Of a DNA stretch of 64,000 nt, positions 4,735-20,533 are shown piece after piece. This stretch comes from Microbacterium invictum (GTDB taxonomy: Bacteria; Actinomycetota; Actinomycetes; Actinomycetales; Microbacteriaceae). The stretch is from the NCBI RefSeq assembly GCF_014197265.1, contig NZ_JACIFH010000001.1, positions 2,852,001 through 2,916,000 on the forward strand, given 5' to 3'. The translations under genes were made by a program, and so were the position numbers. Each line of letters opens with the position of its first letter. Position 1 is the stretch's first letter. The notes below the pieces were generated by a model. That model was not told the origin of the DNA and did not search any database. It saw only the letters and a list, made by a program, of their open reading frames with translations.

Positions 4735-4894
4735 TGTGGGGATGTTGATGTGACGATCCTGGCGTGCTTGTGACGAATGTGGAGCCTGTGCTCGGAGCGC
4801 ACATGTCCGTCGCCTCCGAGTGGGACTGGAGATTCATTACTGCGGCGGTCGATGAGGGGATGTGGGCGACCGCCGAGCTCAATACTTTGAGAAC

Positions 4895-7372
4895 ATGCAC
4901 GCAGTGCCCTTCCGCAGCGCGACCGCGTCTCGCCTCGACCTGAGGCGGGATGCACGCGATGTGGTGCGGGCCTGGATCATGCAGCCTCGCACGACGCGCA
5001 CGCTCGTAGTGCGAGGCGATCTCGGGACAGGCAAGTCGACCCTCCTGGCGTCCGTCGCGCAGGAGATCGGCGCTGAGGTCTACACACCCGGCCGACTCGG
5101 GGAACTCGTCGAGTGCCACGAGCCGAGCACCCACCCGACCATCGTGTTGATCGATGACGTCGAGCGGATCGACCCGCCCTCACTGGGGGCGCTTCAGCTT
5201 TGGGTCTCGGCGCTGCCGGCATCGACCCCAGGCTTCGGCGTGATCGTCGCCGCTCGCGGACGGACGCCATTCGACAGCACGGCGGAGGTCGTGGTGCTCG
5301 ACGAGCTGGATCCGATCGATGTGCGGGGCATCATCTCCGCGACGCACCCCGGCACGCATCCGCACCTCGTCGACCGTGTGGTCGCGGAAGCGGGCGGAAA
5401 CGTCGCGCTCATCGCACACTGGCTGTCCGAGCCGATGACCGGGCGCACGTGGCTCGACGACTTCTCCGAGGAGACCGTCCTCTCTGTGCCCCCTCGATAC
5501 CGCTCCATCATCGACGAGTTCACGGAGTGGACCGGAGCCGAGCACCGCGAAATCCTTAACGCCGCTGTCAAGCATTCGAGCGCAGCGCTCGAAGCAGCCT
5601 CGCGGCCCGGCGAACCTGCTCTGCTCGGCAGCGGCCCCTTGTCGCCGATCCATCGCATTGCTCTCCTCCGCGCCGCCACGCCGGAGCAGCTGCGCGCCGC
5701 GCATTCCGCCGCCGCGCAGGATCGCGGGATCCACTCGACTCTCCGGCTGCGACACGCGGCGATTGCCGAGGGCACCGCCGATGCTGTCGCCACGTGGGCC
5801 GACGAGCACCCCGAAGCGGCACCGCTGCTGGCCCTGTCGGCGCGTGCATCGGCCGTGCGACTCGCACGCGACGAGCACGACGCGCGCGGCTGGACGGCAC
5901 GCCTCGTCGCCGAAGCCACCTACCGCGGCGACCTCGCGCTCGCCGAGCGGATCTTGATCGAGTCGACAGCCGACCTTGCGACCGAGCCCGTGGCCACCGG
6001 CGCGGTGGCGCTGATCCGCCTGCTCGGATACGGCGACCTCGACGCCGGGAGAGCCGCACGCGACCGTGGGACGCCGTACGACGAGACGGCGACCCTCATC
6101 GTCGCCACCTTCACCGCGCTGCTGTCCGGGCTCGACGACGACTGGATGCGGGCGGGCGAGGCGGCGGAGCACGTCGGCGACGATCCGGCCGCACGGCGCC
6201 TCGCACATGCGGTGCACGCGCGGATCGATGCGGTCACCGCCACCACTGCGTGGCCGCACGTCGCCCGCCTCGGGCTGGCGGGCACCCAGCACGACCTGCT
6301 TCAGGCCATCGGCGTCGCCGTCGACCCGGGATCAGCATGGATGCCGGAACTCGGCCTGCCTCCCAGCGGCGGCCCATCGCCGCTGATCCACGCCGTACTC
6401 GGACTGGCGCGCGCACTGTCGCTGACGCGCGAGGGCGCATGGCTCCAGGCCGTCGAGGCGGCGGGTGCGGAAGCGGCGACGGCCGACCGGTTCGGCATGC
6501 GCGTGGTGGCGCTCAAGGCGCGGGGCGTGCAATCGGTCGCGTACGCGTACCTCGGCCGGGTGAGAGAGGCGTCGGCGCGCATCGGCGAGCTCCTGGCCGA
6601 CCCGATCGCGCGACGTCTGGCCAACGTGATGACCTGTGTCCGCGATGCCCAGCTGCAGCTGGCGCTGCAGAGCGACGACGACAACGGGGTCCTCAGCGCC
6701 ATCGCCGGCATCACGACCTTCCGCGCTGCCGATCACGTCTATCCCGCGGGATGGCTGCTCGACATCGCAGCGGCACGCATGCACCGCGCCGTCACCGGCC
6801 GCGGCATGACCAGACGGCTCGCAGACGCGCGGGCGGGGTCATCGCTCACCGAGAGCACAGAGTTCGCCGCACGGTGCCTCGATGTCGTGGCAGCCGGGCG
6901 GGACGTCACAGCCCGGCTGGCCGGACTCATCGACTCGCGTGCGGGCTTCATCCGGCCCTTCGAGGCGGCACGTTCCCGCATCGTGCTGGCCGACCTGCTC
7001 GCCCACCATGGCAGAGGTGAGGACGCCCGCGACGCCTATGCGATCGCGGCGGCAGAACTCGACGGCACCTCGGCTGACGGATGGCAGGAGCGAGCGCGTT
7101 CGCGCAGCCTGATGCCCCCGCCATCCGCGACGGCGACCCCGCACGCGATGGAGCCTCAGGTGCTGCTGACCGCCCAGGAAGAGCGCATCGCGGCGCTGGC
7201 GGCGGCCGGACTGTCGAACAAGGAGATCGCACAGCGATTGCACCTGTCACCGCGCACCGTCGGCGGGCACCTGTACAACATCTTCCCGAAGCTCGGCATC
7301 GGCTCCCGCGCGGCGATGCGGGACGCCCTGCTGCGGCTCGACCGCGTCGCCGCGCACGCGCTCGCCTCCTGA
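4895..7372 (+). CDS. LuxR-family regulator with N-terminal STAND/AAA ATPase domain (LAL-type)
   Basis: This large regulator of about 825 residues has an intact Walker A motif (GDLGTGKST, about residues 41-49) and a Walker B-like segment (IVLIDDVERID). A long alpha-helical, TPR-like middle leads to a C-terminal LuxR helix-turn-helix (LSNKEIAQRLHLSPRTV) in the last 65 residues. Such proteins couple ATP binding and an effector to transcription. The frame is open to 4862; the ATG at 4895 was chosen because homology-like sequence starts just after it. An ECF sigma gene follows 84 bp downstream on the same strand. The target and effector are unknown. Confidence 0.85.
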   Translation: MHAVPFRSATASRLDLRRDARDVVRAWIMQPRTTRTLVVRGDLGTGKSTLLASVAQEIGAEVYTPGRLGELVECHEPSTHPTIVLIDDVERIDPPSLGALQLWVSALPASTPGFGVIVAARGRTPFDSTAEVVVLDELDPIDVRGIISATHPGTHPHLVDRVVAEAGGNVALIAHWLSEPMTGRTWLDDFSEETVLSVPPRYRSIIDEFTEWTGAEHREILNAAVKHSSAALEAASRPGEPALLGSGPLSPIHRIALLRAATPEQLRAAHSAAAQDRGIHSTLRLRHAAIAEGTADAVATWADEHPEAAPLLALSARASAVRLARDEHDARGWTARLVAEATYRGDLALAERILIESTADLATEPVATGAVALIRLLGYGDLDAGRAARDRGTPYDETATLIVATFTALLSGLDDDWMRAGEAAEHVGDDPAARRLAHAVHARIDAVTATTAWPHVARLGLAGTQHDLLQAIGVAVDPGSAWMPELGLPPSGGPSPLIHAVLGLARALSLTREGAWLQAVEAAGAEAATADRFGMRVVALKARGVQSVAYAYLGRVREASARIGELLADPIARRLANVMTCVRDAQLQLALQSDDDNGVLSAIAGITTFRAADHVYPAGWLLDIAAARMHRAVTGRGMTRRLADARAGSSLTESTEFAARCLDVVAAGRDVTARLAGLIDSRAGFIRPFEAARSRIVLADLLAHHGRGEDARDAYAIAAAELDGTSADGWQERARSRSLMPPPSATATPHAMEPQVLLTAQEERIAALAAAGLSNKEIAQRLHLSPRTVGGHLYNIFPKLGIGSRAAMRDALLRLDRVAAHALAS

Positions 7373-7390
7373 CGCCGACACCGGGTCGAT

Positions 7391-7410
7391 GACTCGAATC
7401 TGACTCGAGT
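7391..7410. promoter_or_regulatory. GACTCGA direct repeats / ACTCGAGT palindrome before the sigma gene
   Basis: GACTCGA occurs at 7391-7397 and 7402-7408, spaced 11 bp (one helical turn) apart. The second copy forms the palindrome ACTCGAGT (7403-7410). The pair lies in the 84-bp gap between the LuxR-type gene and the ECF sigma gene and may be a regulator site. No CGTCACA-type promoter is visible here. Confidence 0.35.
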
Positions 7411-7456
7411 CGAAGTGCCGTGGCCCCCGCGGCATCCCCTCGCGAGGCTCACCCTC

Positions 7457-8185
7457 ATGAGAGAGCAACTCGATATGCAGGTCGCGGCGGACCGTGCCGC
7501 GCGCGACGGGTGGGAGCGCCACCTCGAACTGTTCACGGGCGAGCGACGGCGACTGTTCGGCATCGCCTATCGCATGCTGCGGTCGGTCGCCGACGCCGAC
7601 GACATCGTCCAGGAGGCGTGGATCAAGTGGCAGCGCGTCGACCTCGAGCCGCTGCGCGACCCGGTCGCATTCCTGGTGACCATCACGACACGGCTCTGCC
7701 TGAACCTGGTCCAGTCCGCGTACCGGCGCCGCGAAGTCACCGCCGAGCCGTGGCTTCCCGATCAGACGGCGTCACCGCACGACCCGGCGCACGATGTGGA
7801 GATCGCCGATCAGCTGCGAGCGGCAGTCGACCTGCTCGTGACGCGACTCACGCCGGCCGAGCGGGCGGCCTTCGTCCTGCGCGAGACGCTGGACTATCCC
7901 TACGCGCGCATCGCCACGCTGATCGGGGCGTCACAGGCCGGCGCGCGTCAGCTGGTCAGCCGCGCACGCCGGCAGCTCACCTCGCCGACGCGCCGCGACA
8001 TCGTGACAGGCGACCCGCGACCGCTGCTGGTCGCGCTCCGCGACGCGTCACGCGGCGCCGGAACGGAACGTCTCGAAGCTCTTGTGGTCGACGCCATCCC
8101 GCGGACCTCCGCGGCCGGTCACCGCCCTTCGCGGCCGGCCCACGCCATCAGGTCGGCGCGCGAAGACAGCCCGAGCTTCGCGTAG
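7457..8185 (+). CDS. ECF RNA polymerase sigma factor, ECF41/SigJ-like, with truncated C-terminal domain
   Basis: This extracytoplasmic-function sigma factor has region 2 (RLFGIAYRMLRSVADADDIV) and region 4 (TPAERAAFVLRETLDYPYAR, then AGARQLVSRARR). The TRLCLN and PWLPD signatures between them are typical of the SigJ/ECF41 group. That group normally ends in a SnoaL-like domain of about 100 residues that modulates activity. Here only its first helix (PLLVALRDASRG...LEALVVDAI) is recognisable before the frame runs into the 3' end of the opposing LuxR gene, which it overlaps by 67 bp. The ATG at 7457 (MREQL) is chosen over an upstream start. ECF41-like promoters lie before nearby SDR and hydrolase genes. 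The ECF assignment is secure and the subgroup probable. Confidence 0.85.
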   Translation: MREQLDMQVAADRAARDGWERHLELFTGERRRLFGIAYRMLRSVADADDIVQEAWIKWQRVDLEPLRDPVAFLVTITTRLCLNLVQSAYRRREVTAEPWLPDQTASPHDPAHDVEIADQLRAAVDLLVTRLTPAERAAFVLRETLDYPYARIATLIGASQAGARQLVSRARRQLTSPTRRDIVTGDPRPLLVALRDASRGAGTERLEALVVDAIPRTSAAGHRPSRPAHAIRSAREDSPSFA

Positions 8186-10548
8186 ATGTGGCGGATGTGG
8201 GTCGTCACCGTGTGCGGCGAGATCGACAGCTCTTCCGCGATGCGGGGAGCGGTCGACCCCAGCACCGCCCGGTCGAGAACCCTCCGCTCCGTCGGCGTCA
8301 GCCCGTCGGCGGGATGCGCGTCTGAGGCGCCGCCGACCGCGACGCCGTGACCGCGCAAGACCCGTCTGAGCAGCCAGGCATCGCGATGCGCCCCGAACCT
8401 CGAGAAGTCGTCGTGCGCCGATTCGACCAGTTCGAGGCCGCTGCGCTCACCGGTCTCGATGAGAAGGATGCCGGCATCGGCCCTCGCTGCCGCAGCCAGG
8501 AGCGGGCGTTTCGACCGAGCCCAGTCGTCTGCGACCTGAGTCAGCTGCGCTGCATCGCGCGAGGTGAGTCCCGCCACATGATCGGCGACGGTGCGTGCGA
8601 GCGGGTGGCCGCGCGAGATCGCCGCACGATGGGCCGTCCACGTCGCGATGCGCGCGAGGGCATCGGTCAGACCGCTGCGCAGCAGTGCCCGCGCGATCAG
8701 GATGTCGTCGGCCGGATCCAGCCACGACACCGGATCGAGCGCATCGGGGTTCGCGCTGGCGCCGACCCGCGACTCGGCCTCGTCGAGAAGAAAGCGCCAC
8801 CACTCCAGCCGCGCTCGCGCCTCGCTCTGCGGGGGAGTGTCGGCGGCGAGCGGCTCGCGCAGCTCGTGGAGCTCGGCGGCCGCGCCGCGGTGCAGGGCGA
8901 CCTTGAGTCGCACCGACAGCGCGATCGCCTGAAGCCTGTCCGATGCACCGGGCGGCAGCGCCCAGAACCGCTCGGCAAGGGTCGTCGCCAGCACCGCCTC
9001 ATCCCAGGCCTCGTCGAGGCGTCCGAGATCCAGTAGCACGAGGCTCCGCTCGGCGTGGACGAACCGGCGCGCGGCCGCTTGCGACCGCCCTTCGAGGTCG
9101 ACGAGCAGATCGTCGAGCTGCTGCAGCGCCGTGGCGGCGTCGCCGAGCTGCAGTTCGACGTGCGGCGCCCAGATCATCTCCGGCATCCATTCGGCCGTCG
9201 GTGCGCCGGATCGCCGCCAGCTCGCCACCGCCTCCTCGGCCAGTGCACGCGAGGCGGAGTAGTCGCCCCGGTAGAACCGCCGGATGCTGTCGCAGGCGAC
9301 CAGCCGGGAGCGCGATTCGTCGTCCCCCAGGCGCGCAGCCCGGCTGATCGCCTGGGGCAGCAGGGCATCGACCTCGTCGCGGCGGCCGAGGGTCGACAGC
9401 AGCCGCAGGTGCACCGCGAGCAGCTTCACCTGGGTCGCCTCGGACACCCCGGGCAAGGTGAGCGCGTGCGTCGTGTGCCGGACGGCATCCTCCGCCGATC
9501 CCTCCAGCCGGGCCAGCCACCACAGGGCGCGCGCCTCGGCGTCGCTGCGGCCGTCTTCGCTGAAGACCCGGGCGATCAGCTCTCGGGCGTCGGCTGACCG
9601 TGAGGTCTGCCACAGCAGCGGCAGCAGCCGCCAGGTGAGGTCGGTCAGCTGCGGACGGGGCCCCGTGATGAGGTCGGCCGCGGCCAGCCCGTACCGGGCG
9701 GCGGTGTCGGGATCGGCGTCGTGGAGGGCCTGAGAGGCATCGGCGAGCACCCGGACGGCCAGGGGATCGTCAGGGGTGGATGCCGCGAGCGCGAGCTCCG
9801 CGAGCAGATCGGCCGCAACGCCGCGCCTGTCGAGTACCGCGAGGATGTCGTGCGCGATCGCCCGGCGAACCGTGGCCGGCGGGGGCGTCGCGCGGCTGCC
9901 TGCCGCATCTCCGGTGACGAGGACGGCACCGTGCGCGACGCCGGCCAGACGCGGCGACGCGGCCTGCGTGGCGATGACGTCGTCGCGGGACACTCCGGTC
10001 AGCTCGGCCACCTCGTCCGGCAGCAGTGCGATGGGGGAGAGTCCGGCCACCTCGAGGATCGTCTGCTCGATGGGCGTGCTGCTCGGACCCGCGGGCTCCG
10101 ATGACCGCGGCCGCTCCGCTTCGGCGCGGACGACATCACCGCCGATGTGATCGATCGCCCACACCACGGGCAGCTCGGCCGTCTCACCGCGCAACCGGTC
10201 GAACTCCACTCGTGCCGACCCGGACGCGTCGTCGGCGCTGACCACCACGATCGTCGGGCGCGCGGTGCTCCGGGTGCGCAGAGCATCCACCAGGTGGCGG
10301 CGCAGCACCCCGTCAACTGCCTCGCTGACCACGTGCAGCGAAGCGGCACTGAGCTCGTCCAGCAGACGGGCGAGCACACTCGTGTGCGGCACGACGGGCC
10401 CCAGCGCGATCACGTCGGCCCCGGTGGCAGCCTCGGCCACGAGCGCATCGCGCTGCGCGGCATCGTCGAGGTCGACGGTGGCGCCGTGCCCGTCGGCCGC
10501 GGCCCGCAGCAGATCGGCGAACGGTGCCGCTTCGGCCTCGCCGGTCAT
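8119..10548 (-). CDS. LuxR-family regulator with degenerate ATPase domain (second of tandem pair)
   Basis: This 809-residue protein ends in a clear LuxR helix-turn-helix (TERRVLDRAV...APRIAEELSISPHTVTTHI), which binds DNA. The N-terminal region aligns in layout with LAL-type ATPases but has no Walker A: the expected P-loop reads GATVDLDDAAQRDALV, without GKS/T. It is translationally coupled to the upstream paralogue by a 4-bp ATGA overlap at 10545-10548. A protein that can no longer bind ATP in the usual way but keeps its DNA-binding head is inferred. Its 3' end overlaps the sigma-factor frame. Confidence 0.82.
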   Translation of the reverse strand: MTGEAEAAPFADLLRAAADGHGATVDLDDAAQRDALVAEAATGADVIALGPVVPHTSVLARLLDELSAASLHVVSEAVDGVLRRHLVDALRTRSTARPTIVVVSADDASGSARVEFDRLRGETAELPVVWAIDHIGGDVVRAEAERPRSSEPAGPSSTPIEQTILEVAGLSPIALLPDEVAELTGVSRDDVIATQAASPRLAGVAHGAVLVTGDAAGSRATPPPATVRRAIAHDILAVLDRRGVAADLLAELALAASTPDDPLAVRVLADASQALHDADPDTAARYGLAAADLITGPRPQLTDLTWRLLPLLWQTSRSADARELIARVFSEDGRSDAEARALWWLARLEGSAEDAVRHTTHALTLPGVSEATQVKLLAVHLRLLSTLGRRDEVDALLPQAISRAARLGDDESRSRLVACDSIRRFYRGDYSASRALAEEAVASWRRSGAPTAEWMPEMIWAPHVELQLGDAATALQQLDDLLVDLEGRSQAAARRFVHAERSLVLLDLGRLDEAWDEAVLATTLAERFWALPPGASDRLQAIALSVRLKVALHRGAAAELHELREPLAADTPPQSEARARLEWWRFLLDEAESRVGASANPDALDPVSWLDPADDILIARALLRSGLTDALARIATWTAHRAAISRGHPLARTVADHVAGLTSRDAAQLTQVADDWARSKRPLLAAAARADAGILLIETGERSGLELVESAHDDFSRFGAHRDAWLLRRVLRGHGVAVGGASDAHPADGLTPTERRVLDRAVLGSTAPRIAEELSISPHTVTTHIRHIYAKLGLSSRADLMAWAGREGR

Positions 10549-12992
10549 CGGCCGGCCCCGCGGGCCGGGTCCGGCGATCGGATGAGGTCGATCAGCTCGC
10601 CGCGGGAGCGTACGCCGACCTTCGCGTAGATGCGGCTCAGATGCACCGACACCGTGTTCGGCGAGAGGAACAGCGCGCGTGCGACCTGCTCGTTGGTGGC
10701 GCCCGCGAGCACCGCCTGTGCGACGCGCTCCTGGGCCGCGGTCAGGCCGAGGCCCAGGCTGCTGTCGTCGGCTCGGGCGCGGCTTCCCATGGTGCGGAGC
10801 AGCTGCGCGATGCGTGCGGCTTCGCGGTGCGCGCCGAGCTCGGTCCAGGTCGCCGCGGCCGCGTGTAGCGCATCTTCCCGGGCGGGCGGCGCCGAAGTGG
10901 CCAGGCCCACATCCTCGCCCGCCTGCGCCGCCAGCAGCCGGCGGCCGATGGCCAGGTAGGTCGCCTGCGCCTCGCGGATCGCGCCCGCGTCGCCGTCGAG
11001 CAGCCCCGAGCAGTGCCGGACGGCGGCGCGGAGGAGGATCGACTCGGTCGTCCGGCTCAGCAGCTCGATCGAGGCGAAGTGGCGCAGGGCGCTGGCCCGG
11101 TCGGCGCCGTGGAATGCGAACCGGAAGGTCGAGATCACGTCGCTCAGGCCGCGCGCGATCCAGTAGTGCCGGGTGCGGGAGGCGCCCTTCCCGCCGTTCC
11201 CGCCGCCCGCTGTCCCTTCGCCCGCCGCCGCGGCGGGGCGGTCGAAGCCGAGGGCGTCGTCGGCGAAGGCGAGGGCGCGTGCCGCGGTCTCGGCGCGCGC
11301 GTCATCCTCCTGCAGTCCGCGCTGCAGTGCGGCCCGCAGCTCCTGCAGACGCACGAGGTCCCCCGTCATGCGGTAGACGTGCGTCAGCAGGTTCGCACAA
11401 TTCGTCGAGACCAGGCCCGGCAGCTGCATGCCCTCGCCGAGCTGGAGCGCGCCCTCCGCGTGCACGGCGGCGGCCGCGAGTCGCCCGGCATCCATCCGCA
11501 GAATGCCGGTCATCATCATGAGAGGCGGGATCGCCTGCGCCTGCCCCGCCCGGTGGGCGGCGGCGACCGCTTCGGTCAGCACAGCCTCGGCGTCTTCGGT
11601 GCGGCCGAGATCGGCGAGAAGCCGCGTGCGGTAGACAGCCGCCATCCACCACACCGGCCCCTGGTCGGCGCCCCACGGCAGGGGCATCGGCAGGGTCGCG
11701 GCGCGAAGTGCCGCGCCCAGGTCGCCCTCCTCGGCTTCGAACAGCGCCTCCGCGAGCCGGCGCAGGCCCTCGGCGCGCGCATCGCCGGTGGCATGCACGA
11801 GGGCGTCCACGTCGTGCCGCTGGGCATCGGTGGCCAGACCGCGATAGGTGTCGGCGACCAGCGCCAGGCCCGACAGCCGCGCACGGTCGGCGCTGGTGAG
11901 ACCGCTGCCGGCGAGGAGAGGGGCCACCGCGGCGCGCGCCTTCTGGGTGACTGCCGCGAAGGTGGCCTCTGCGACGGCGAAGGTGAGCGCCGGACCGGCG
12001 CCCCCGTCGAGCACCCCGGCATAGTCGCCGTACGCGGTCGGAACCCCCGACTGCAGGCTGAACGTCGCCGCCCGGGCGGCGACCGCATCGAGGTCGGATG
12101 CCGGGAGCCGGCCGAGCACCCGCGTCAGGGCGACGGCGGCGGTGGCCGGGTCGCTCGCGCTCATCAGCTCGCACGCCGCGACCGCGCCGGCCGGCTCGAG
12201 GCGGTCGAGGGTCAGCACGCCGGTGCGCACCCCGTCGGCCAGCGCCGCACTCTTCCCGGCGTCGATCAAACGCCTCACGACACGATCGTGCAGGTCGTCG
12301 GCCGAGCGCACCGCGTCACCCACGGCATCGCTGAGCACCCGTCGCCGCACGCGCGGGTCGGCGAACCGGAGGTCGCTGTCGTCCTCGACGAGGATCCCGG
12401 CATCCATCGCCCTGCGGAAGAACGGCAGCAGCGACGCGACCGGCCGATCGAGTGCGGCCGCCAGATCGGCGGCGTCGATCGGGCGACCGAGCAGGGCGGC
12501 GGCGAACAGGTGATCATCGTCCGCCGTCGTCGTCGTGACGGCATCCGGTGCCGCGTCGTCGGGGGCGCCGGGGTCGCCCGGTTCGCCGAGATGCACGATC
12601 CAGGCGGCTGCCGCCGGTCCGATCTTCGGGCGCGCGACGGCCACGAGGGCGCGCGAGGCGGGAGCGAGGCTGTCGAGGCCGGCAACCGTGATGAGGATCC
12701 GGGGCGTTGCCGCGCCCGGCGCCGAATCGGCGATGGAGTCGTAGAGGCGAGACGTGTCGAGCGGGTGACCGCGATCGACGCGCAGGGTGGGGATGCCGGC
12801 ATCCGCCGCCAGGCGCTCGGCCTGATCGAGCAGCGCCGTGCCGCGCGCATCGGCGTCGAGATGGACGACAGTGCCCCGGCCGGCACGCAGCTGTGCGATC
12901 GCGGCGGAGACGGCTGCTCCGATCGTCTCGGACGACTGCACTTCTTCCCTCTCGACGGCGCCGTTGGTCGTGCCCGGCGGCGGGTCGAGCAC
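10545..12992 (-). CDS. LuxR-family regulator with degenerate ATPase domain (first of tandem pair)
   Basis: This 815-residue regulator has a C-terminal LuxR helix-turn-helix (TNEQVARALFLSPNTVSVHL). The N-terminal P-loop position reads VVHLDADARGTALL, where family members have GxxGxGKTxLL, so the catalytic Lys is missing. A GTG start at 12992 is used; a second GTG about 55 bp downstream (VQSSETIG) is possible. The gene is divergent from the first SDR gene (13142), with 149 bp between, and is the first gene of a two-gene operon with its paralogue. Targets may include the adjacent SDR genes; this is inference. Confidence 0.82.
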   Translation of the reverse strand: MLDPPPGTTNGAVEREEVQSSETIGAAVSAAIAQLRAGRGTVVHLDADARGTALLDQAERLAADAGIPTLRVDRGHPLDTSRLYDSIADSAPGAATPRILITVAGLDSLAPASRALVAVARPKIGPAAAAWIVHLGEPGDPGAPDDAAPDAVTTTTADDDHLFAAALLGRPIDAADLAAALDRPVASLLPFFRRAMDAGILVEDDSDLRFADPRVRRRVLSDAVGDAVRSADDLHDRVVRRLIDAGKSAALADGVRTGVLTLDRLEPAGAVAACELMSASDPATAAVALTRVLGRLPASDLDAVAARAATFSLQSGVPTAYGDYAGVLDGGAGPALTFAVAEATFAAVTQKARAAVAPLLAGSGLTSADRARLSGLALVADTYRGLATDAQRHDVDALVHATGDARAEGLRRLAEALFEAEEGDLGAALRAATLPMPLPWGADQGPVWWMAAVYRTRLLADLGRTEDAEAVLTEAVAAAHRAGQAQAIPPLMMMTGILRMDAGRLAAAAVHAEGALQLGEGMQLPGLVSTNCANLLTHVYRMTGDLVRLQELRAALQRGLQEDDARAETAARALAFADDALGFDRPAAAAGEGTAGGGNGGKGASRTRHYWIARGLSDVISTFRFAFHGADRASALRHFASIELLSRTTESILLRAAVRHCSGLLDGDAGAIREAQATYLAIGRRLLAAQAGEDVGLATSAPPAREDALHAAAATWTELGAHREAARIAQLLRTMGSRARADDSSLGLGLTAAQERVAQAVLAGATNEQVARALFLSPNTVSVHLSRIYAKVGVRSRGELIDLIRSPDPARGAGR

Positions 12993-13046: not shown

Positions 13047-13073
13047 CGTCACAGTGCGCAGCGGCATCCGGTC
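13047..13073 (+). promoter_or_regulatory. ECF41-like promoter, copy A (CGTCACA-N16-GGTC)
   Basis: CGTCACA at 13047-13053 and GGTC at 13070-13073 are separated by exactly 16 bp, 69 bp before the SDR ATG. The published ECF41 consensus is TGTCACA-N16/17-CGTC. Two more copies with the same sequence and spacing are found at 13884 and, on the minus strand, at 20533. Confidence 0.7.
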
Positions 13074-13141
13074 TTCTCTGAAAGGGGCCGCGACCGGTCT
13101 GTCGCCGGGACGCGTCGCACGACCGAGAGTAAGGACACGTC

Positions 13142-13894
13142 ATGAACATCACCGTCGTCGGGGGCACCGGGCTCATCGGCACCCTCCTTGTCGCGCACCT
13201 GCGCCGCGAGGGCCATCAGGTCGTCTCGGCGGCACGGGCCACGGGGGTCAACTCCTACACCGCCGAAGGGCTGCCCGAAGCGCTCGACGGCGCGCAGGCG
13301 GTCGTGGACGTGTCGAACTCGTCGTATATCGACGAGGCCGCGGCGCGCGAGTTCTTCTACGTCTCGACCATGAATCTGCTGTCGTACGGTGCGGCCGCCG
13401 GCGTCGCGCACCACGTCGCGCTGTCGGTCGTCGGCACGGACCGGCTTGCCCGCGCCGAAGGCGGATACTTCCAGGCCAAGGCGGAGCAGGAGCGGCTCAT
13501 CGTCGGCTCCGGTGCGGCGTTCACGCTCGTGCACGCGACGCAGTTCTTCGAGTTCGTCCGCAGCATCACCGACGCGGCGACGCGGGGCCCGGTGGCACGC
13601 GTGGCGGCGGCACGAATCCAGCCCATGGCCGCGCGCGACGTGGCCGCCGCCGTGGCCGTGGCCGCCACCGGCGCCCCGCAGGGCGGCATCGTGGAGCACG
13701 CCGGACCTGAGGTGTTCGAACCGCGGGCTCTGGCCGAGCGGGAGCTGCTGCACCGGCGCGACGACCGGCAGGTCGAGGCCGACCCGCTCGGCACGTACTT
13801 CGGTGCCCGGATCGGCCGCGATGATCTGCTTCCCGGGGCCGGAGTCAGGATCGCTCCCACCCGTTTCGACGATTGGCTCGCGTCGTCACACTGA
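13142..13894 (+). CDS. NmrA-like atypical SDR (NAD(P)-binding oxidoreductase/epimerase family), paralogue 1
   Basis: This 250-residue Rossmann protein has an N-terminal nucleotide-binding motif (VVGGTGLIGTLL). It also has segments shared by four paralogues in this window: VVDVSNSS, HHVALSVVGTDR, YFQAKAEQE and LVHATQFFEF. It lacks the YxxxK pair of classical SDRs, so it belongs to the atypical NmrA/SDR_a group, whose members are reductases, epimerases or redox sensors. It is preceded by an ECF41-like promoter (copy A), and ECF41 sigma factors classically control such oxidoreductase/epimerase genes. The substrate is unknown. Confidence 0.85.
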   Translation: MNITVVGGTGLIGTLLVAHLRREGHQVVSAARATGVNSYTAEGLPEALDGAQAVVDVSNSSYIDEAAAREFFYVSTMNLLSYGAAAGVAHHVALSVVGTDRLARAEGGYFQAKAEQERLIVGSGAAFTLVHATQFFEFVRSITDAATRGPVARVAAARIQPMAARDVAAAVAVAATGAPQGGIVEHAGPEVFEPRALAERELLHRRDDRQVEADPLGTYFGARIGRDDLLPGAGVRIAPTRFDDWLASSH

Positions 13895-13910
13895 CGCGCC
13901 CGGCTCGGTC
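13884..13910 (+). promoter_or_regulatory. ECF41-like promoter, copy B (CGTCACA-N16-GGTC)
   Basis: CGTCACA at 13884-13890 overlaps the last codons of the first SDR gene, and GGTC lies at 13907-13910, again with a 16-bp spacer. The next SDR gene starts 40 bp downstream at 13950. Sequence and spacing are identical to copies A and C. Confidence 0.7.
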
Positions 13911-13949
13911 TGATTGGTGATGCCGCGCACGCGGCCCCGAGAGAAAGGC

Positions 13950-14714
13950 ATGGACATGGCAAGAATCGTCGTCATCGGCGGGACGGGACTGGTCGGCTCA
14001 CAGGTCGTCGCGAAACTCACCGAGCACGGCCACGAGGCCGTCGCCGCGGCACCCAACACGGGGGTCGACACGATCACCGGCGAGGGTCTGGCCGAGGCGC
14101 TGACCGGCGCCGACGTCGTCGTCGACGTGTCGAACTCACCGTCGTTCGAGCAGAACGCCGTCCTGGAGTTCTTCACGACGTCGACGACCAACCTGCTGGC
14201 CGCCGAGCGGAAGGCAGGAGTCGGCCACCACGTCGCGCTCACCATCGTGGGCACCAACCGGCCCCAGGACATCCCGTACTTCCAGGCCAAGGTCGCGCAG
14301 GAGAAGCTCATCCGCGAGTCCGGCATCCCGTACTCCCTGGTCCACGCCACCCAGTTCTTCGAGTTCATCGGCAGCATCGCCGACATCTCGACCGACGGCG
14401 ACGTCGTGACCCTGCCCGGTGCGCTCGTGCGCCCCCTGGCCTCGGCCGATGTCGCAACGGCGGTCGCACAGACCGCCGCGGGCACGCCGCGCAACGGCGA
14501 CCTCGAGATCGCCGGGCCCGAGGAGTTCGGACTCGACGAGTTCGTCCGCCGCGGGCTCGCCTTCCGCGGTGACCCGCGCACGGTCGTGCGCGACGACTTG
14601 GCGCCCTACTACGGCGCGGTCGTCGCCGAGCGCACACTCGTGCCGGTCGCCGGCGCACGGATCTTCACGACGCGGCTCGAGGACTGGCTGCCCGTCAACC
14701 CGCCGCGCTCGTGA
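13950..14714 (+). CDS. NmrA-like atypical SDR, paralogue 2
   Basis: This is a 254-residue Rossmann-fold protein with VIGGTGLVGS at the N-terminus, VVDVSNSP, HHVALTIVGTNR, YFQAKVAQEKLI and LVHATQFFEFIGS, closely paralogous to the gene before it. The ATG at 13950 follows a GAGAAAGG ribosome-binding site; a second in-frame ATG at 13956 is also possible. Its own ECF41-like promoter (copy B) lies directly upstream, so it can be transcribed apart from its neighbour. Function is limited to predicted NAD(P)-dependent oxidoreductase or epimerase. Confidence 0.85.
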   Translation: MDMARIVVIGGTGLVGSQVVAKLTEHGHEAVAAAPNTGVDTITGEGLAEALTGADVVVDVSNSPSFEQNAVLEFFTTSTTNLLAAERKAGVGHHVALTIVGTNRPQDIPYFQAKVAQEKLIRESGIPYSLVHATQFFEFIGSIADISTDGDVVTLPGALVRPLASADVATAVAQTAAGTPRNGDLEIAGPEEFGLDEFVRRGLAFRGDPRTVVRDDLAPYYGAVVAERTLVPVAGARIFTTRLEDWLPVNPPRS

Positions 14715-14814
14715 CATCGCGCGGTGCCCGGTGTGTGCCCGGCGTCGCGCCCACTCCGACACACCCGTCGCCTCGGCGGGTGTGTCGGCATGCCGAGAGA
14801 AAGGAACGAGGCCG

Positions 14815-15564
14815 ATGAAACTGGCAATCGCCGGAGGAACGGGCACGGTCGGACGCCACGTCGTCGCCGTCGCCCGAGATCGCGGGCACGACGTGGTCGT
14901 GCTGGCACGATCGCAGGGCACCGATGTGCTGCGCGGAGAGGGGCTCACCACCGCCGTCGAGGGCGCGGACGCCGTGATCGACGTGACCAACCTCACCACC
15001 CTGTCGGCGCGGTCCGCGCGCCGGTTCTTCGAGACCGTCACGGGAAACCTGCTGGGGGCGGAGATGGATGCCGGGGTCGCCCACCATGTGGCCCTGTCGA
15101 TCGTCGGGATCGACGACATCGACGCCTCGTATTACGCCGGAAAGCTGGCGCAGGAGCGTGCGGTCATGGCCGGGTCGGTGCCCTACTCGATCGTGCGGGT
15201 GGGGCAGTTCCACGAGTTCGTGGGGCAGCTGCTGTCGGGCATGAACGGCCGGACCGTGGTCATGCCCACGATGCTGATGCGTCCAGTGGCGGCGCGGGAG
15301 ATCGCCGCGCACCTGCTCACCGTGACCGAGGGCGGCCCGGCGGGTCGCACGGCCGAGCTGGTTGGGCCGCGGGACGAGCGGCTCGGCGATCTCGTGCGCA
15401 TGCAGCTCGCGTACGACCTTCAGCGGCGGCGTGTGCTCGAAGTGCGCCTGCCCGGCCGGTACGGCAGGGGCCTGGCCTCCGGGGCGCTCCGCGGAACCGG
15501 GCGGGAGCTGCAGGGGGAGATCACGTTCGAGAACTGGCTGCGCAGCGACGACCACCGGCGGTGA
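14815..15564 (+). CDS. NmrA-like atypical SDR, paralogue 3
   Basis: This 249-residue protein has the nucleotide-binding start AIAGGTGTVGRHV and the paralogue signatures VIDVTNLT, HHVALSIVGIDD and YYAGKLAQE. It is the most divergent of the three tandem copies: the ATQFFEF segment reads VGQFHEFVG. The ATG at 14815 follows GAGAAAGGAACGAG. Only a weak ECF41-like candidate (CGTGACA-N16-GTGT at 14710) precedes it. The last codons form the left arm of a perfect 17-bp hairpin whose loop contains the stop codon. Confidence 0.83.
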   Translation: MKLAIAGGTGTVGRHVVAVARDRGHDVVVLARSQGTDVLRGEGLTTAVEGADAVIDVTNLTTLSARSARRFFETVTGNLLGAEMDAGVAHHVALSIVGIDDIDASYYAGKLAQERAVMAGSVPYSIVRVGQFHEFVGQLLSGMNGRTVVMPTMLMRPVAAREIAAHLLTVTEGGPAGRTAELVGPRDERLGDLVRMQLAYDLQRRRVLEVRLPGRYGRGLASGALRGTGRELQGEITFENWLRSDDHRR

Positions 15565-15581
15565 GTCGCTGCGCAGCCAGT
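15533..15581. terminator. 17-bp perfect inverted repeat spanning the SDR stop codon
   Basis: Arms at 15533-15549 and 15565-15581 are fully complementary with a 15-nt loop. The left arm is coding (the NWLRSD codons of SDR 3), the TGA is in the loop, and the right arm lies in the 25-bp gap before the convergent reductase gene. It probably acts as a bidirectional terminator, although no T-run follows. Confidence 0.6.
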
Positions 15582-15589
15582 CCGGATCT

Positions 15590-16846
15590 TCAGGGCGTCG
15601 CGGATTGTCCGCGGCGCCCTGCGAACTCCGTCAGGTCGGCCGGCGCCACGGCCGCGGTCACGATGGCGTCGATGTCGGAGGTCGCATCGGGGACGTTCAG
15701 CGTCAGACCCGCGTCGACCCGGCCGTCGCGCACCCAGAACGCGGCGAAGGCGCCGGCATCCACATCGCCGCTGACGACCACGTCGTGGCCGCCGTCCGGT
15801 GCGACGAACCCCGTGTACTCCATGCTGGTGTCGTACTGGTCGCTGTAGAAGTACGGCAGCCGCGTGTACTCGGCGTCGGACCCCAGCATCGCCTTGGCAG
15901 CGTGCGGGCCGGTGCGCAGCGCGGTGGCCCAGTGTTAGACCCGGACCGGCCGCCCCCACCGCGGCGAGGGAATGCTCGCGATGTCGCCGGCGGCGTACAC
16001 ATCCGGATGCGACGTCGCCAGCGTGCCGTCGACGGCGACGCCGCCGCCCAGGTCGGCGGCAGCGATCCGCAGGCCTGCCGCCGCGGCGAGACCGGTGTTG
16101 GGCGCCGCGCCGACCCCGGCGACGACGACGTCGGCGTCGAGGACCTCGCCGCTGGCAAGTTCGACGCCGGTGACCTGGCCGTCCACACCGACGATCCGCG
16201 TCAGCCGAGCCCGCGAGCGGAGGCGCACACCGTGCCGTTCGTGGAGGTCGCGGTAGAAGGCGCCCACCCGAGGGCCGAGCACCCGTGCGAGCGGTACCTC
16301 GCCGCGACCGACCACCGTGACATCGAGCCCGAGTGAGCATGCCGATGCGGCCACTTCCAGTCCGATCCACCTGTCGCCGATCACCACGACCTTCCCGTCG
16401 CCGTCCCGCTGGGCGGCCGTCAGGCGCGCGGCGAGCAGATCCGCGTCGTGCACCGTGCGCAGCGTCTGCACACCACGCAGGTCCGACCCGGGCACGTCGA
16501 GCGACCGCGGCGACGATCCCGTCGCCAGCAGCAATTTTGCGTACGCGAGGGACCGGCCGTCGGCGAGAGTGACGCGGTGCGCGTCGGGCTCGATGGCGAC
16601 GGCCGAGAGGCCGATGCGCACATCGGCGTCGTTCTCGCGGTACCAGCCCAGCGCGGGGGTGAACAGCGCCGCACGGCCGGACTCGCCGCGCAGGTAGTCC
16701 TTCGTCAGCGGCGGGCGCTCGTACGGGTGGTGAGGTTCGGCGGCGATCACGACGACATCGCCGTCGAAGCCCTGGCGGCGGAGTGTGCGCACGGCGCTGC
16801 CGGCGGCGAGCCCGCCGCCGATGATGATGATGGGTTCCTCAGGCAT
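15590..16846 (-). pseudogene. FAD-dependent ferredoxin/pyridine-nucleotide reductase, interrupted by one in-frame TAA
   Basis: The frame encodes a ferredoxin-reductase-type flavoprotein with an N-terminal FAD motif (IIIIGGGLAAGSA), YERPPLTKDYL, ATGSSPR, a second Rossmann domain, VYAAGDIAS and a C-terminal reductase domain (LPYFYSDQYDTSMEYTG). After GRPVRV the codon at 15935-15937 is TAA, and the same frame then continues HWATAL through the C-terminal domain to 15590. Relatives have RVEHW here, so one GAA-to-TAA change explains the break. The NAD-binding motif is also altered: GDRWIG where relatives have GGGWIG or GAGWIG, which supports decay rather than a sequencing error. Intact, it would be about 418 residues. 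It is the last gene of a five-gene operon from 20436. Confidence 0.85.
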
Positions 16847-16870
16847 GCTGTCTCGCTCTCTCGTGGTCGA

Positions 16871-17794
16871 TCAGGGGGTTCCGGCGCCGTCACCGGGCGG
16901 TTCGGCGACGTCGACGATCAGCTCGGCGAAGGCATGCGGCGCTTCGGCCGGAAGATTGTGCCCGGCGTGGGGTATGAGCCGGTGATCCCGCGGCCCCGTG
17001 AACAGGTGCGCGTCGCGCGAGGGGTCGGATGCCGGGAAGTTGCCGTCGGCCAGTCCATCGACGGTGATGGTCGGAACCGCGATCGGCGGACGGCTCGCCA
17101 GGCGCCGCTCGAGCTCGTCATACTGCGGCGCCCCGGGTTCCAGACCCAGCCGGTGCCGGTACGAGTGGATGACGACGTCGACGTAGTCCGGGTTGTGGAA
17201 GGCGTGCGCGACCTCGTCGAGGTGGGCGTCGGTGAACGACCAGTCCGGCGAATTGCGCCGCCAGATGACCTCCGCGATCTCGCGCCGGTTCAGCTCGAGC
17301 CCGCGGCGACCGCGTTCGGTGGCGAAGTACCAGAAGTACCAGAACCCGGCCTCCAGCTGCGGGCTCAGAGGCGCGGTCGACCCGCTGACATCCTGGATCA
17401 GGTATCCGTTCGTGGTCACCAGCCCGCCGACCCGATCAGGCCAGAGCGCGGCGACGACACAGGCCGCCCGGCCGCCCCAGTCGTAACCGGCGAGGATCGG
17501 CTGCTCGAGGTCGAGCGCGTCGATCATCGCGAGCAGATCTGCGCCCAGGGCCGCCTGCTGCCCGGAGCGCGGGATGCCCGGGTCGAGGAAACGCGTCGGC
17601 CCGTGACCGCGCAGATAGGGCACGATGACGCGGAATCCGGCGTCGGTGAGCATGGGGGCAACCTCGGCGTAGCTGTGGACGTCGTAGGGAAAGCCGTGCA
17701 GCAGGACGACGGGTTCGCCGTGCGGGTCGCCACCGTCGGCGAATGCGATGCTCAGCTCCCCGGCATCCACGTGCTTGATCGGGAACGCGGTCAT
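16871..17794 (-). CDS. alpha/beta hydrolase, epoxide-hydrolase-like
   Basis: This 307-residue protein has the HGFP oxyanion-hole motif, an Asp nucleophile in the elbow GYDWGGRAA, and a catalytic His in HAGHNLPAEAP. The Asp nucleophile is typical of epoxide hydrolases and haloalkane dehalogenases rather than Ser esterases. The start at 17794 (MTAFPIKH) overlaps the stop of the upstream SDR gene by 4 bp, so the two are translationally coupled. The substrate is unknown. Confidence 0.85.
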   Translation of the reverse strand: MTAFPIKHVDAGELSIAFADGGDPHGEPVVLLHGFPYDVHSYAEVAPMLTDAGFRVIVPYLRGHGPTRFLDPGIPRSGQQAALGADLLAMIDALDLEQPILAGYDWGGRAACVVAALWPDRVGGLVTTNGYLIQDVSGSTAPLSPQLEAGFWYFWYFATERGRRGLELNRREIAEVIWRRNSPDWSFTDAHLDEVAHAFHNPDYVDVVIHSYRHRLGLEPGAPQYDELERRLASRPPIAVPTITVDGLADGNFPASDPSRDAHLFTGPRDHRLIPHAGHNLPAEAPHAFAELIVDVAEPPGDGAGTP

Positions 17795-18609
17795 GACGCC
17801 ACCTCCAGGCGCGGGTGGTGGTGCAGTAGGTGACGCAGCTGCGGCATCCCGGGCTTGGACGGCCGATGAGCGTGCAGCCAGTGGTCGAACCGGGTGGGCG
17901 CGATGAACGCGCACGGGCCGGGCAGCAGCTCGGTGACGTCGATGTGGGCGCCGAAGTACAGTCCGTCATCGGACTGATCGATGCGGCGCGGGTCGTGGCG
18001 GGGCTCGAGCACGGCCCGCACGAAGTCCACCAGCGGGAGGCGGTCGGGCCCGGCGAACTCGATGACGCCGTCCAGCGCCGGCTGATCCGCCACCCGGGCG
18101 ACGGCCGCGGCGATGTCGTCGGCGGCGATGGGCTGGACGAGGGTGTGCGGCAGCCGGATGCGATCGCCGTGCGTCGCGTCGTCGGCGATCGCCGGTGCGA
18201 ACTCCATGAACTGCGTGGCGTGGACGAGGGTGAAGGGAACGCCGCCGCGTGCGATCAGCCGCTCGGCGGCGGCCTTGGCCTGGTAGTACGGGATGGCCGG
18301 GTGGCGGTCGGTGCCGACCGCGGCGAGCATCACGTGATGGCCCACACCGGCGGCGCGGCCGGCGGCGAGCAGGTTCGTGGTGACAGTGGTGAAATGGCTG
18401 CGGACGGCGGCCGGCTCATAGGTGCGCGGTTTCGAGACGTCGACGACGACGTCGGCACCGTGGAGGGTCTCGGCAAGCCCCCTGCCGCTGACCGCGTCGA
18501 CGCCGGTCGACGGTGCTGCGGCGATGGCGTCGTGACCGGCGCGGGTCAGACGCGTGACGATGCGGCGGCCGACCATGCCGGTTCCGCCGATGACGATGAT
18601 CCTGGACAT
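17791..18609 (-). CDS. NmrA-like atypical SDR, paralogue 4
   Basis: This 272-residue protein has VIGGTGMVGRRIV at the N-terminus and the same signatures as the three plus-strand paralogues (VVDVSKPR, HHVMLAAVGTDR, YYQAKAAAERLI, LVHATQFMEF). It lies in the minus-strand operon between two alpha/beta hydrolases, with a GAGGAGGC ribosome-binding site upstream. It probably arose by duplication from, or shares a source with, the tandem SDRs. No classical YxxxK motif is present. Confidence 0.85.
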   Translation of the reverse strand: MSRIIVIGGTGMVGRRIVTRLTRAGHDAIAAAPSTGVDAVSGRGLAETLHGADVVVDVSKPRTYEPAAVRSHFTTVTTNLLAAGRAAGVGHHVMLAAVGTDRHPAIPYYQAKAAAERLIARGGVPFTLVHATQFMEFAPAIADDATHGDRIRLPHTLVQPIAADDIAAAVARVADQPALDGVIEFAGPDRLPLVDFVRAVLEPRHDPRRIDQSDDGLYFGAHIDVTELLPGPCAFIAPTRFDHWLHAHRPSKPGMPQLRHLLHHHPRLEVAS

Positions 18610-18687
18610 GAGATGCCTCCTCGGTTGCAGGGGGTGGAGGGCGACGTCCCGGGAGCGGGGGGTTCGACCGGGACGCCGCCCCGTGTT

Positions 18688-19431
18688 TCAGGCGGTGGAC
18701 GCCGCGCGCCGCGCGACGTACGCCTTGCCCGCCTCGGCGATGGTCGCCGCGACCGCGTCGGGCTGCGACACCGTCAGGGCGTGTGATGCCCCCGCGATCT
18801 CGCGGGTGCCGCGCGACGCGGCGCGCTCGGCGCCGGCGCGGTGGACGGCGACCGGGATGTTGAGGTCCTGGTCACCGAACACGTGCCAGGAGGGGATGTC
18901 CTTCCAGGCCGGACGGGTCGTCGGCAGTCCCTCCGACAGCGCCGCCTCGGTGACGGGGCGCTGTGTGGCTGCCATGAGCGTTGCCTGCGCGACCGGGACG
19001 TCGGCGGCGAACTGCGCGGGGAACACGTCCTGGCGGATGGCGAACTCGTTGCCGCCGCCGTCGACCGGGTAGGCCGTCAGAGCCTCGCCCAGGGTGCTCC
19101 CGGGTGCGCTCGTCGACAGGGCGAATGCGCTCTCGCCGGTCTCGGGGACGAAGGCCGCCACGTAGACGAGGCCCACGACCGAATCGTTATCGGCGGCGGC
19201 CTCGGTGATGACCAGGCCGCCGTACGAGTGGCCGACGAGAATGACGGGGCCGCCGATGGCGGCGATCACGTCGCGGACGTAGGCGGCGTCGCCGGCGAGG
19301 CTCCGCAGCGGGTTCGCGGCCGCGACGACGGTGACGCCCTTCTCCTGCAGGCGCGCGATGACGCCGTTCCAGGAGGCGGACTCGGCGAATGCGCCGTGGA
19401 CCAGGACGACGGTGGGCTTCTGATCGGACAT
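18688..19431 (-). CDS. alpha/beta hydrolase (Ser esterase type)
   Basis: This 247-residue alpha/beta hydrolase has the HGAF motif near the N-terminus, a serine nucleophile in GHSYGG and a C-terminal His in GASHALTV. The arrangement matches the salicylate-esterase/EstC-like proteins often found beside NmrA-like SDRs. The ATG at 19431 follows AAAGAGGAACC. It is the second gene of the operon behind ECF41-like promoter C. The substrate is not predictable. Confidence 0.85.
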   Translation of the reverse strand: MSDQKPTVVLVHGAFAESASWNGVIARLQEKGVTVVAAANPLRSLAGDAAYVRDVIAAIGGPVILVGHSYGGLVITEAAADNDSVVGLVYVAAFVPETGESAFALSTSAPGSTLGEALTAYPVDGGGNEFAIRQDVFPAQFAADVPVAQATLMAATQRPVTEAALSEGLPTTRPAWKDIPSWHVFGDQDLNIPVAVHRAGAERAASRGTREIAGASHALTVSQPDAVAATIAEAGKAYVARRAASTA

Positions 19432-19488
19432 GGTGGTTCCTCTTTCTTGGGGGTGGGTGGATCGGGTATTGCGGATGGGTCGATCGGG

Positions 19489-20436
19489 TCAGTGGCCGAA
19501 GGCCTTGCGAAGGTTGTGGATGGCCTGCTCGACGGCCGCGGTCGTCGCGGCGGACGGGCGCAGCGGGTTGAGCATCATGAAGTCGTGGATGGTGGCGTCG
19601 TACCGCACCAGGGTCGTCCGTACGCCGGCGGCGATGAGCTTGCGTCCGTATCCCTCTCCCTCGTCGCGCAGGACGTCGTTCTCGTCGACGATGAGGAAGG
19701 TCTCGGGCAGGCCGGTCAGCTCGTCGGTCGGTGCCTGCAGCGGTGAGGCCGTCACGTCCTTGCGAGCGTGGTGGTCGGGGAGGTAGCAGTCCCAGAACCA
19801 GGCCATCGCGTCGGCGCGCAGATGGTAGCCCGCTGCGAACTCGCGGTAGCTGGCGGTGTCCTGCCCGGCATCGGTCACCGGGTAGTACAGCGACTGGTGC
19901 ACGAACGCGACGTCGCCGCGCTTCTTCGCGAGGATCGCGAGCACGGCGGCCATGTTGCCCCCGACGGAGTCGCCGGCGACGGCCAGGCGCGAGGCGTCCA
20001 GGCCCAGCTCGATGCCGTGCTCGGTGATCCACCGTGCCGTCGCGTATCCCTGCTCGATCGCCACGGGGTGCTTCGCCTCGGGTGAGCGGTCGTATTCGAC
20101 GAACGCCACGGCCGCGTGCACTCCGGTCGCGATCTCGCGCACCAGCCGGTCGTGGGTGCCGGCGTTGCCGAGCACCCAGCCCCCGCCGTGCATGTACAGG
20201 ACTGCCGGCAGCGCCCCGGCCGCGTCGAGCGGCTTGACGATGCGCACGCGCACGTCGCCCACTTCGGCGGGAACGGTGATCCACTCCTCGTCGACGTCGG
20301 GCTTGTCGACGGGTGCGGCCTGCACGGAGTCGAGGAGTTCGCGCGCGCCGTCGACGCCCAGGTCGGCGAGGAATGGCGGCTTCGAAGTGGCCTCGGCGAA
20401 CGCCTGGGCTTCGGGTTGCAGGGTGTGGTCGAGCAT
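19489..20436 (-). CDS. alpha/beta hydrolase fold-3 esterase/lipase (HSL family)
   Basis: This 315-residue hormone-sensitive-lipase-type esterase has HGGGW (residues 83-87) for the oxyanion hole, nucleophile Ser157 in GDSVGG, an acid residue in [11 protein letters not shown] and the catalytic His in IHDFM. The ATG at 20436 ([10 protein letters not shown]) is chosen over a much longer open frame because homology begins there. It is the first gene of a minus-strand operon of five genes ending at the broken reductase, with an ECF41-like promoter about 70 bp upstream. Confidence 0.87.
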
Positions 20437-20506
20437 GAGTGGTCCTCTTCCTTCGTCGGGTGCGGCACCCGGTGGCGACAAGGCCCAGCGGGCCGGATAC
20501 AGACAG

Positions 20507-20533
20507 GACCGTGGTCGCCGTGCGTATGTGACG
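20507..20533 (-). promoter_or_regulatory. ECF41-like promoter, copy C (CGTCACA-N16-GGTC)
   Basis: On the minus strand CGTCACA (20533-20527), a 16-bp spacer and GGTC (20510-20507) lie about 70 bp before the esterase ATG. Elements and spacing are identical to copies A and B. It would drive the esterase-hydrolase-SDR-hydrolase-reductase operon. Confidence 0.7.

Follow-up and report, generated by a model that had tools for sequence, protein, structure and literature searches.

A 64,000-nt stretch of the Microbacterium invictum genome (NCBI RefSeq assembly GCF_014197265.1, contig NZ_JACIFH010000001.1, forward-strand positions 2,852,001 to 2,916,000; hereafter the window) carries three copies of the sequence CGTCACA-N16-GGTC, designated P1, P2 and P3, and a gene for a sigma factor related to the ECF41 group of extracytoplasmic function (ECF) sigma factors. 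We consider it highly probable that P1-P3 are promoters through which this neighbouring, ECF41-derived sigma factor controls one local regulon. A preceding sequence-only reading of the window had reported three sites with an equal 16-nt spacer, and they are exact at 13047 (+), 13884 (+) and 20533 (-); the distances to the following start codons, put there at 40-70 bp, are 68, 39 and 70 nt for P1, P2 and P3, respectively. The gene positions likewise bear out that two genes for short-chain dehydrogenases/reductases (SDRs) and a five-gene hydrolase-SDR-reductase operon lie behind the sites (Table 1).

In the window the strict pattern matched three times against a shuffle mean of 0.12, and none of 100 shuffles reached three matches. 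The source genome is one contig of 3,580,260 bp, over which the strict pattern matched only four times: three of the matches fall within a 7.5-kb part of the window, all upstream of starts, and the fourth (C1:3340087) is antisense within an open reading frame (ORF). The published form TGTCACA-N16-CGTC had no match in the 3,580,260 bp scanned, and YGTCACA-N16-KGTC added, elsewhere in the genome, only two TGTC matches and the antisense one. Identity among P1-P3 is confined to the two boxes; the spacers differ, except that a C precedes GGTC in all three (CGGTC). Only 1 nt separates the -35 box of P2 from the stop codon of SDR_A. When the spacing was varied (CGTCACA-N6..30-GGTC), the genome yielded 46 rows over 25 spacings, four of them at N16, and the reversed pattern yielded 33. 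By themselves these own-genome counts are suggestive only; it is the clustering and placement of the sites, and above all the comparative data, that convince.

For the comparison we surveyed 198 genomes of relatives, the source genome (G000) included, 81 of which had a match to the window sigma factor at an E of 1e-20 or better. The clade set comprises 38 regions (L073-L110) around sigma matches above 155 bits, from Microbacterium and its order; the weaker set comprises 40 regions (L111-L150), part of the weaker sigma matches listed. Four regions, L129, L130, L136 and L147, were first placed in the weaker set, and L130 was reassigned to the clade on inspection. A later set added 21 loci, each about 3.6 kb long, from 19 new genomes.

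In 35 of the 38 clade regions the pattern NGTCACA-N16-NGTC is present, 101 times in all; at spacers of 15, 17, 14 and 18 nt the same boxes give 2, 3, 4 and 6 sites, and the reversed pattern gives none. With YGTCACA-N16-KGTC we found 95 sites (94 distinct sequences) against 1-6 in ten Markov shuffles, the -10 element being GGTC in 76, TGTC in 19, and CGTC or AGTC in none. A C precedes GGTC in 76 of the 79 GGTC sites (76 from the regions plus the three of the window), and downstream of GGTC there is a T at 6 nt in 58 and a G at 7 nt in 50 of these 79; neither this C nor the T and G belonged to the search pattern, and the conserved T and G look like an initiator. Targets were classified for 102 sites, drawn from the 38 regions, L130 and the window (which contributes its own three), and the distance from site to start has a median of 50 nt with an interquartile range of 44-57 nt, computed for the 100 of these sites that are followed by an ORF of at least 100 aa. 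The genes behind them are homologues of SDR_B (37), the sigma gene itself (18, e.g. in L077, L078, L084, L096 and L104) and homologues of SDR_A (16), the HSL-family esterase (9), the two alpha/beta hydrolases (4 and 3) and the reductase (1). The remaining 14 have no match to a window protein downstream; they include classical SDRs and a few likely false gene calls. Sigma autoregulation thus looks common in relatives and absent in the window.

In the weaker set (39 loci, L130 omitted) the sites with Y at the first position end in TGTC (23), CGTC (5) or GGTC (1), and a number of loci have no site; the genomes that supplied 23 of the 40 weaker loci carry a clade sigma as well (G090 counted). More distant ECF41-type sigma factors, partly in the same genomes, appear to use TGTC or CGTC where a site is present. 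In a second ECF41 clade among them (L111-L132, mostly Microbacterium) the site is single and uniform and ends in GGTGTC; its distance from the start of the sigma gene is usually about 600-740 nt. The later set contains 30 matches at N16 (GGTC 24, TGTC 5, CGTC 1; two sites are counted twice, since L162 and L182 overlap, and the sigmas with the lowest scores, those of G412, G205 and G249, account for three of the TGTC sites) in 14 of the 21 loci, with seven matches at N11 and at most two at every other spacing from 10 to 22.

At the genome level, 37 sigma-carrying genomes were compiled by hand, namely those above 155 bits plus G090, whose sigma scores 133 bits and was included for its sites and SnoaL motifs, and hence is not independent. 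This sigma (L130, about position 8579, +) appears frame-shifted in its N-terminal part. The sequence-only reading implied that the motif should be more frequent upstream of genes than expected by chance, and in relatives it is strongly tied both to genes and to this sigma clade: YGTCACA-N14-CCGGTC is present in 31 of the 31 Microbacterium genomes counted as clade-sigma carriers (including G000, the source of the motif, and G090 with its sub-threshold sigma) and in 14 of the 88 non-carriers. The TGTCACA form of this pattern occurs in 24 of the 31 and in 1 of the 88. Across the 198 genomes, 55 of 102 such matches are no more than 15 kb away from a clade sigma, a zone that makes up about 0.2% of the sequence. 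In a quick tree of 88 sigmas built from 154 columns of the sigma2-sigma4 regions and labelled by nearest site, which is a proxy, the GGTC side and the side holding most TGTC/CGTC sigmas are split at a branch with a Shimodaira-Hasegawa-like approximate likelihood ratio test (SH-aLRT) value of 95; the GGTC side also includes four TGTC, one CGTC and three site-less rows. The window sigma and P0002, a homologue on a 989-bp JGI/ENA contig that is 82% identical, of equal 242-aa length and with the same end, nest inside the GGTC side among full-length members, on a long branch (0.95).

Given the dominance of GGTC in the clade regions and the TGTC or CGTC of distant sigmas, the view that GGTC is a clade-wide -10 specificity, with [G/T]GTC fixed in the clade and a multi-operon regulon, is supported in silico. 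The proposal of an expanded regulon with a new GGTC -10 variant accordingly stands as to its several operons, here and in relatives, but not as a peculiarity of this genome, since GGTC appears to be the rule of the clade. No single determinant of the -10 base could be named, because the GGTC and TGTC clades differ in as many as 26 columns.

The sigma factor had been described as an ECF41/SigJ-like protein encoded about 5 kb upstream. The location and the SigJ-type core hold; an assignment to canonical ECF41 does not, since the SnoaL domain, the linker and a promoter of its own are missing. The protein matches the SigJ model and positions 2-194 of the 281 of TIGR02957, at 174.6 bits for a cut-off of 323.25, and it falls below the family cut-offs because about one third of the protein is missing. 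It falls in a clade of which all three full-length members tested score above the TIGR02957 and SigJ (PRK09636) cut-offs. It is the one ECF41-like sigma of the genome; the next ECF sigma factor reaches 39 bits when compared with it and 44 bits against TIGR02957. The motifs DGNG, VNGQP and PxKL occur in relatives, three of which show a SnoaL_2 match of 17.6-26 bits, under the Pfam cut-off of 27; the window sigma has neither a SnoaL match nor any of these motifs. It ends about 38 homologous residues past sigma4, just short of DGNG, and beyond this point its gene overlaps the 3' end of a convergent LuxR-type gene; a possible earlier GTG start lies at 7415. An AlphaFold2 model (mean predicted local distance difference test (pLDDT) score 80.5, predicted template modelling (pTM) score 0.48) places helices at 188-198 and 204-212 after sigma4 (pLDDT of this block 70-89), with disorder from 219. 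Compared with SigJ of Mycobacterium tuberculosis (PDB 5xe7), the full-length relative P0004 aligns through sigma2 and sigma4 into the extension, whereas the window sigma stops short of the SnoaL core.

The linker has changed too. It reads TAEPWLPDQ in the window and is not of the YxGPWLPEP type, and in the accessible part of PMC7730460 a distal NPDKL motif is described as connecting the SnoaL domain with YVGPWLPEP in the linker. Among 88 sigmas, Y.G.W.P is kept in all 80 that have PxKL; of the eight that lack PxKL, six have lost the linker motif (the window sigma, P0002, P0040, L080_m12290, L129 and L147) and two have kept it (P0088 and L136). The Fisher p of 5e-8 for the joint loss overstates independence, because several of these sigmas are sisters or possibly incomplete, and P0088 of Actinocorallia, short and with the linker motif retained, is a counter-example. 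As both the SnoaL extension and the YxGPWLPEP linker are missing, the window sigma is an ECF41 derivative and no canonical ECF41. An orphan SnoaL partner was not found in the source genome (best E 0.12), and no anti-sigma gene was obvious among ORFs of at least 120 aa in the 5-23 kb part of the window, a systematic search not having been made. A search of 347 genomes of the order for more SnoaL-less sigmas returned frames of at least 283 aa, except for the window's own, and no clear new case; a related-locus search in named genomes gave one distant locus at 29% identity. A GGTC-type site also stands before a free-standing protein that, by eye, resembles a lone ECF41 C-terminal extension (DGGG, INGSP, NPSKL; G101, L075, about position 11194, +).

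In the mechanism that we propose, sigma4 would bind the -35 element GTCACA and sigma2 the -10 element GGTC, with transcription predicted to begin about 6-7 nt downstream of the latter. The sigma factor would turn on as many as eight genes: SDR_A, SDR_B (perhaps with SDR_C) and the esterase-hydrolase-SDR_D-hydrolase-reductase operon. Because the SnoaL inhibitor and sensor is lost and the hairpin after sigma4 is kept, the sigma factor would be constitutively competent and controlled through its amount; with the inhibitor gone and no GTCACA before the sigma gene, control of this amount by the large LuxR-type regulator encoded upstream (LuxR1) would be the simplest input, and plausibly the one at work. 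We infer binding, sigma activity and LuxR control alike from the sequences compared here.

Several observations limit this reading or weigh against it. The looser pattern GTCACA-N15..18-SGTC has five matches in the window, a number reached by 7 of 100 shuffles and thus not significant, and the -35 box by itself is not enriched there (8 matches for a shuffle mean of 13.8); it is the strict pattern and the relatives that carry the case. Three of the 38 clade regions (L107, L109 and L110) and 7 of the 21 later loci, which are short, have no site. Of the 102 genome-level matches, 47 are either over 15 kb away from a clade sigma or in genomes lacking one, and we regard most of these matches as chance. 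Of the three window sites, one has CCGGTC and two have the downstream TG in register. GTCACA is absent before the window sigma gene, which has no ECF41 promoter of its own, and in the ECF41 cases published in PMC3426412, so far as its accessible text goes, activity was lost when the whole extension was deleted. With neither a site of its own nor an ECF41 regulatory domain, the activity of the window sigma is something that we infer.

The last points bear on the possibility that the sigma is the decaying remnant of a full-length ECF41, and that the promoters are relics or are served by another sigma factor. The loss of both the SnoaL domain and the autoregulatory promoter, the long branch and the in-frame stop in the last gene of the P3 operon would fit such decay, which we nevertheless hold to be unlikely: P0002 has kept the same 242-aa length at 82% identity, the protein comparison gives 94% identity in sigma2 with the linker, 79% in sigma4 and 67% in the last 30 residues, a pattern of purifying selection, and three sites, their boxes and spacing perfect, persist in a genome with no other ECF41-like sigma. 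In the available portion of PMC3426412, which describes the variants 204, 192 and 167 of Ecf41Bli, truncation at 204 raised activity about 20-fold and truncation at 167, the full deletion, abolished it; by length, a comparison of residue counts only, the window sigma resembles variant 204. It differs from these artificial truncations in being a natural form, kept in P0002, that has also lost the linker contact motif.

Could the motif instead be an operator of the nearby LuxR regulators? One of the three large LuxR genes precedes the sigma gene, and the other two are situated between it and P1, one of these being divergent from P1. Yet sites are present in 35 of the 38 regions from relatives, and none of the 79 sigmas with PxKL has a LuxR ORF of at least 600 aa within 4.5 kb (5 of the 79 with less sequence on one side), and the fixed spacing, the distance to the start and the initiator are features of promoters; we regard an operator as very improbable. 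That three short patterns fell near starts by chance in a GC-rich genome would agree with the looser window pattern being within chance and with the four rows of 46 at N16, which are no striking enrichment. With three of the four genome matches gathered in 7.5 kb, all upstream of starts, and sites before the homologous genes of relatives, chance deserves next to no credence, and promoters read by the ECF41-derived sigma factor remain our preferred reading.

The sites differ from those of known ECF41 systems mainly in the -10 element and in their number. In the accessible text of Wecke et al. 2012 (PMC3426412), whose survey of that year found ECF41 in half of the sequenced actinobacterial species, the -10 consensus is CGTC, with TGTT in Bacillus licheniformis, and each sigma has one target; for S. 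meliloti RpoE9, a single target and TGTCACA-N16-CGTC are likewise given in the part of PMC6180224 available. The ECF41 systems of B. licheniformis and Rhodobacter sphaeroides, as described in such partial text, share with the window a TGTCACA-like -35 element, a 16-bp spacer, adjacent NmrA/epimerase and oxidoreductase targets and the SigJ-type sigma2-sigma4 core. The window departs from them in its GGTC -10 element, its three promoters, its up to eight genes including hydrolases and its sigma without a C-terminal extension. The GGTC form was not found in the excerpts of the ECF41 literature consulted, and a subgroup promoter like it may already stand in the 2021 ECF reclassification. An ECF41 sigma factor is named in Azospirillum in the accessible part of PMC8999054, and the reference list there includes a paper on that sigma and motility, so larger ECF41 regulons may be known.

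The enzymes encoded behind P1-P3 include NmrA/Epimerase and Pyr_redox_2 Pfam matches, categories that are also published for ECF41 neighbours (PMC3426412, in its available part), and one hydrolase of the P3 operon is pyrethroid-hydrolase-like by weak PDB similarity. The set suggests detoxification of esters and of carbonyl- or quinone-type compounds. A 15-bp hairpin at 14756-14788, between SDR_B and SDR_C, makes co-transcription of the two uncertain. The frame of the reductase gene stays open for about 100 codons past its TAA, and the gene is probably a recent pseudogene or affected by a sequencing error.

Table 1. Features of the putative regulon and its surroundings, in window coordinates
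Feature	Position	Strand	Remarks
LuxR1, large LuxR-type regulator 1, 836 aa	4862..7372	+	GerE helix-turn-helix (HTH); P-loop-like N-terminus (by eye); 84 nt before sigma ATG
Tandem near-palindromic repeat TGACTCGAATC / TGACTCGAGTC	7390..7411	.	Between LuxR1 and sigma gene
ECF41-derived sigma factor, 242 aa	7457..8185	+	sigma2 and sigma4; without SnoaL extension; linker WLPDQ
Large LuxR-type regulator 2, 809 aa	8119..10548	-	3' end overlaps 3' end of sigma gene
Large LuxR-type regulator 3, 815 aa	10545..12992	-	Divergent from P1
P1, putative promoter CGTCACA-N16-GGTC	13047..13073	+	Before SDR_A start 13142; SDR_A homologues of relatives have the same site type
SDR_A, NmrA/Epimerase-like Rossmann oxidoreductase	13142..13894	+	Pfam match; putative P1 target
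P2, putative promoter CGTCACA-N16-GGTC	13884..13910	+	Before SDR_B start 13950; commonest target class in relatives
SDR_B, NmrA-like oxidoreductase	13950..14714	+	Pfam match; putative P2 target
SDR_C, NAD(P)-binding protein	14815..15564	+	Without own site; 100 nt behind SDR_B
Ferredoxin-reductase-like gene	15935..16846	-	Last gene of P3 operon; in-frame TAA after residue 303
Alpha/beta hydrolase (Abhydrolase_1)	16871..17794	-	P3 operon; 4-nt overlap with SDR_D end
SDR_D, NmrA-like oxidoreductase	17791..18609	-	P3 operon
Alpha/beta hydrolase (Abhydrolase_6)	18688..19431	-	P3 operon
HSL-family esterase	19489..20436	-	P3 operon, gene 1
P3, putative promoter CGTCACA-N16-GGTC	20507..20533	-	Before hydrolase operon start 20436; site before HSL homologues in relatives

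As to the input of the system, a consensus scan of 7300-8300 found neither a sigma70 promoter nor a terminator, and the repeat at 7390-7411 is a speculative candidate operator. Two CGTCACA boxes on the minus strand (4749-4755 and 4769-4775), 20 nt apart, lie directly before LuxR1 and have no GGTC at N16. Large LuxR-type genes also neighbour other sigmas of this kind: in L129 and L147, both SnoaL-less, a LuxR gene of 920-927 aa lies about 1.1 kb from the sigma gene, and as these two form one lineage the adjacency is seen in two lineages. The similarity between the LuxR proteins of the two lineages is mainly in the C-terminal HTH, which makes orthology unlikely, and the hidden Markov model for LuxR neighbours was built from five LuxR proteins beside SnoaL-less sigmas, a bias in its favour. 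No large LuxR neighbour was found for L080_m12290, L136 or the L130 fragment, which lack PxKL, and the sole edge-cut LuxR frame within 4.5 kb (L150) is a 200-aa response regulator. GTCAC-type sites are also present close to the starts of hydrolase and acetyltransferase frames in the L129 and L147 loci, and of SDR frames in L129. In L147 the frame of the SnoaL-less sigma (5042-6229, +) continues without a break into a GNAT acetyltransferase, and a GGTC-type site lies within this frame, between the two parts.

These data allow a tentative generalisation that we think possible, if rather doubtful: a class of SnoaL-less ECF41-derived sigma factors may have arisen at least twice, losing the sensor and the linker contact together and keeping the activating hairpin, with the input passed to adjacent regulators of the LuxR/STAND type (STAND, signal transduction ATPases with numerous domains) that set the amount of an always-competent sigma, and with the GGTC regulon unchanged. 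If this is true, an output module would have retained its promoter code while its input was replaced. For the family as a whole, a clade with a [G/T]GTC -10 element, several operons and frequent autoregulation would lend itself readily to testing how the first -10 base is selected by sigma2, and the GGTC promoter could perhaps serve as an orthogonal part for synthetic biology. Finally, the natural loss of the sensor in the window sigma would make the role of the SnoaL domain directly testable on the same promoters.

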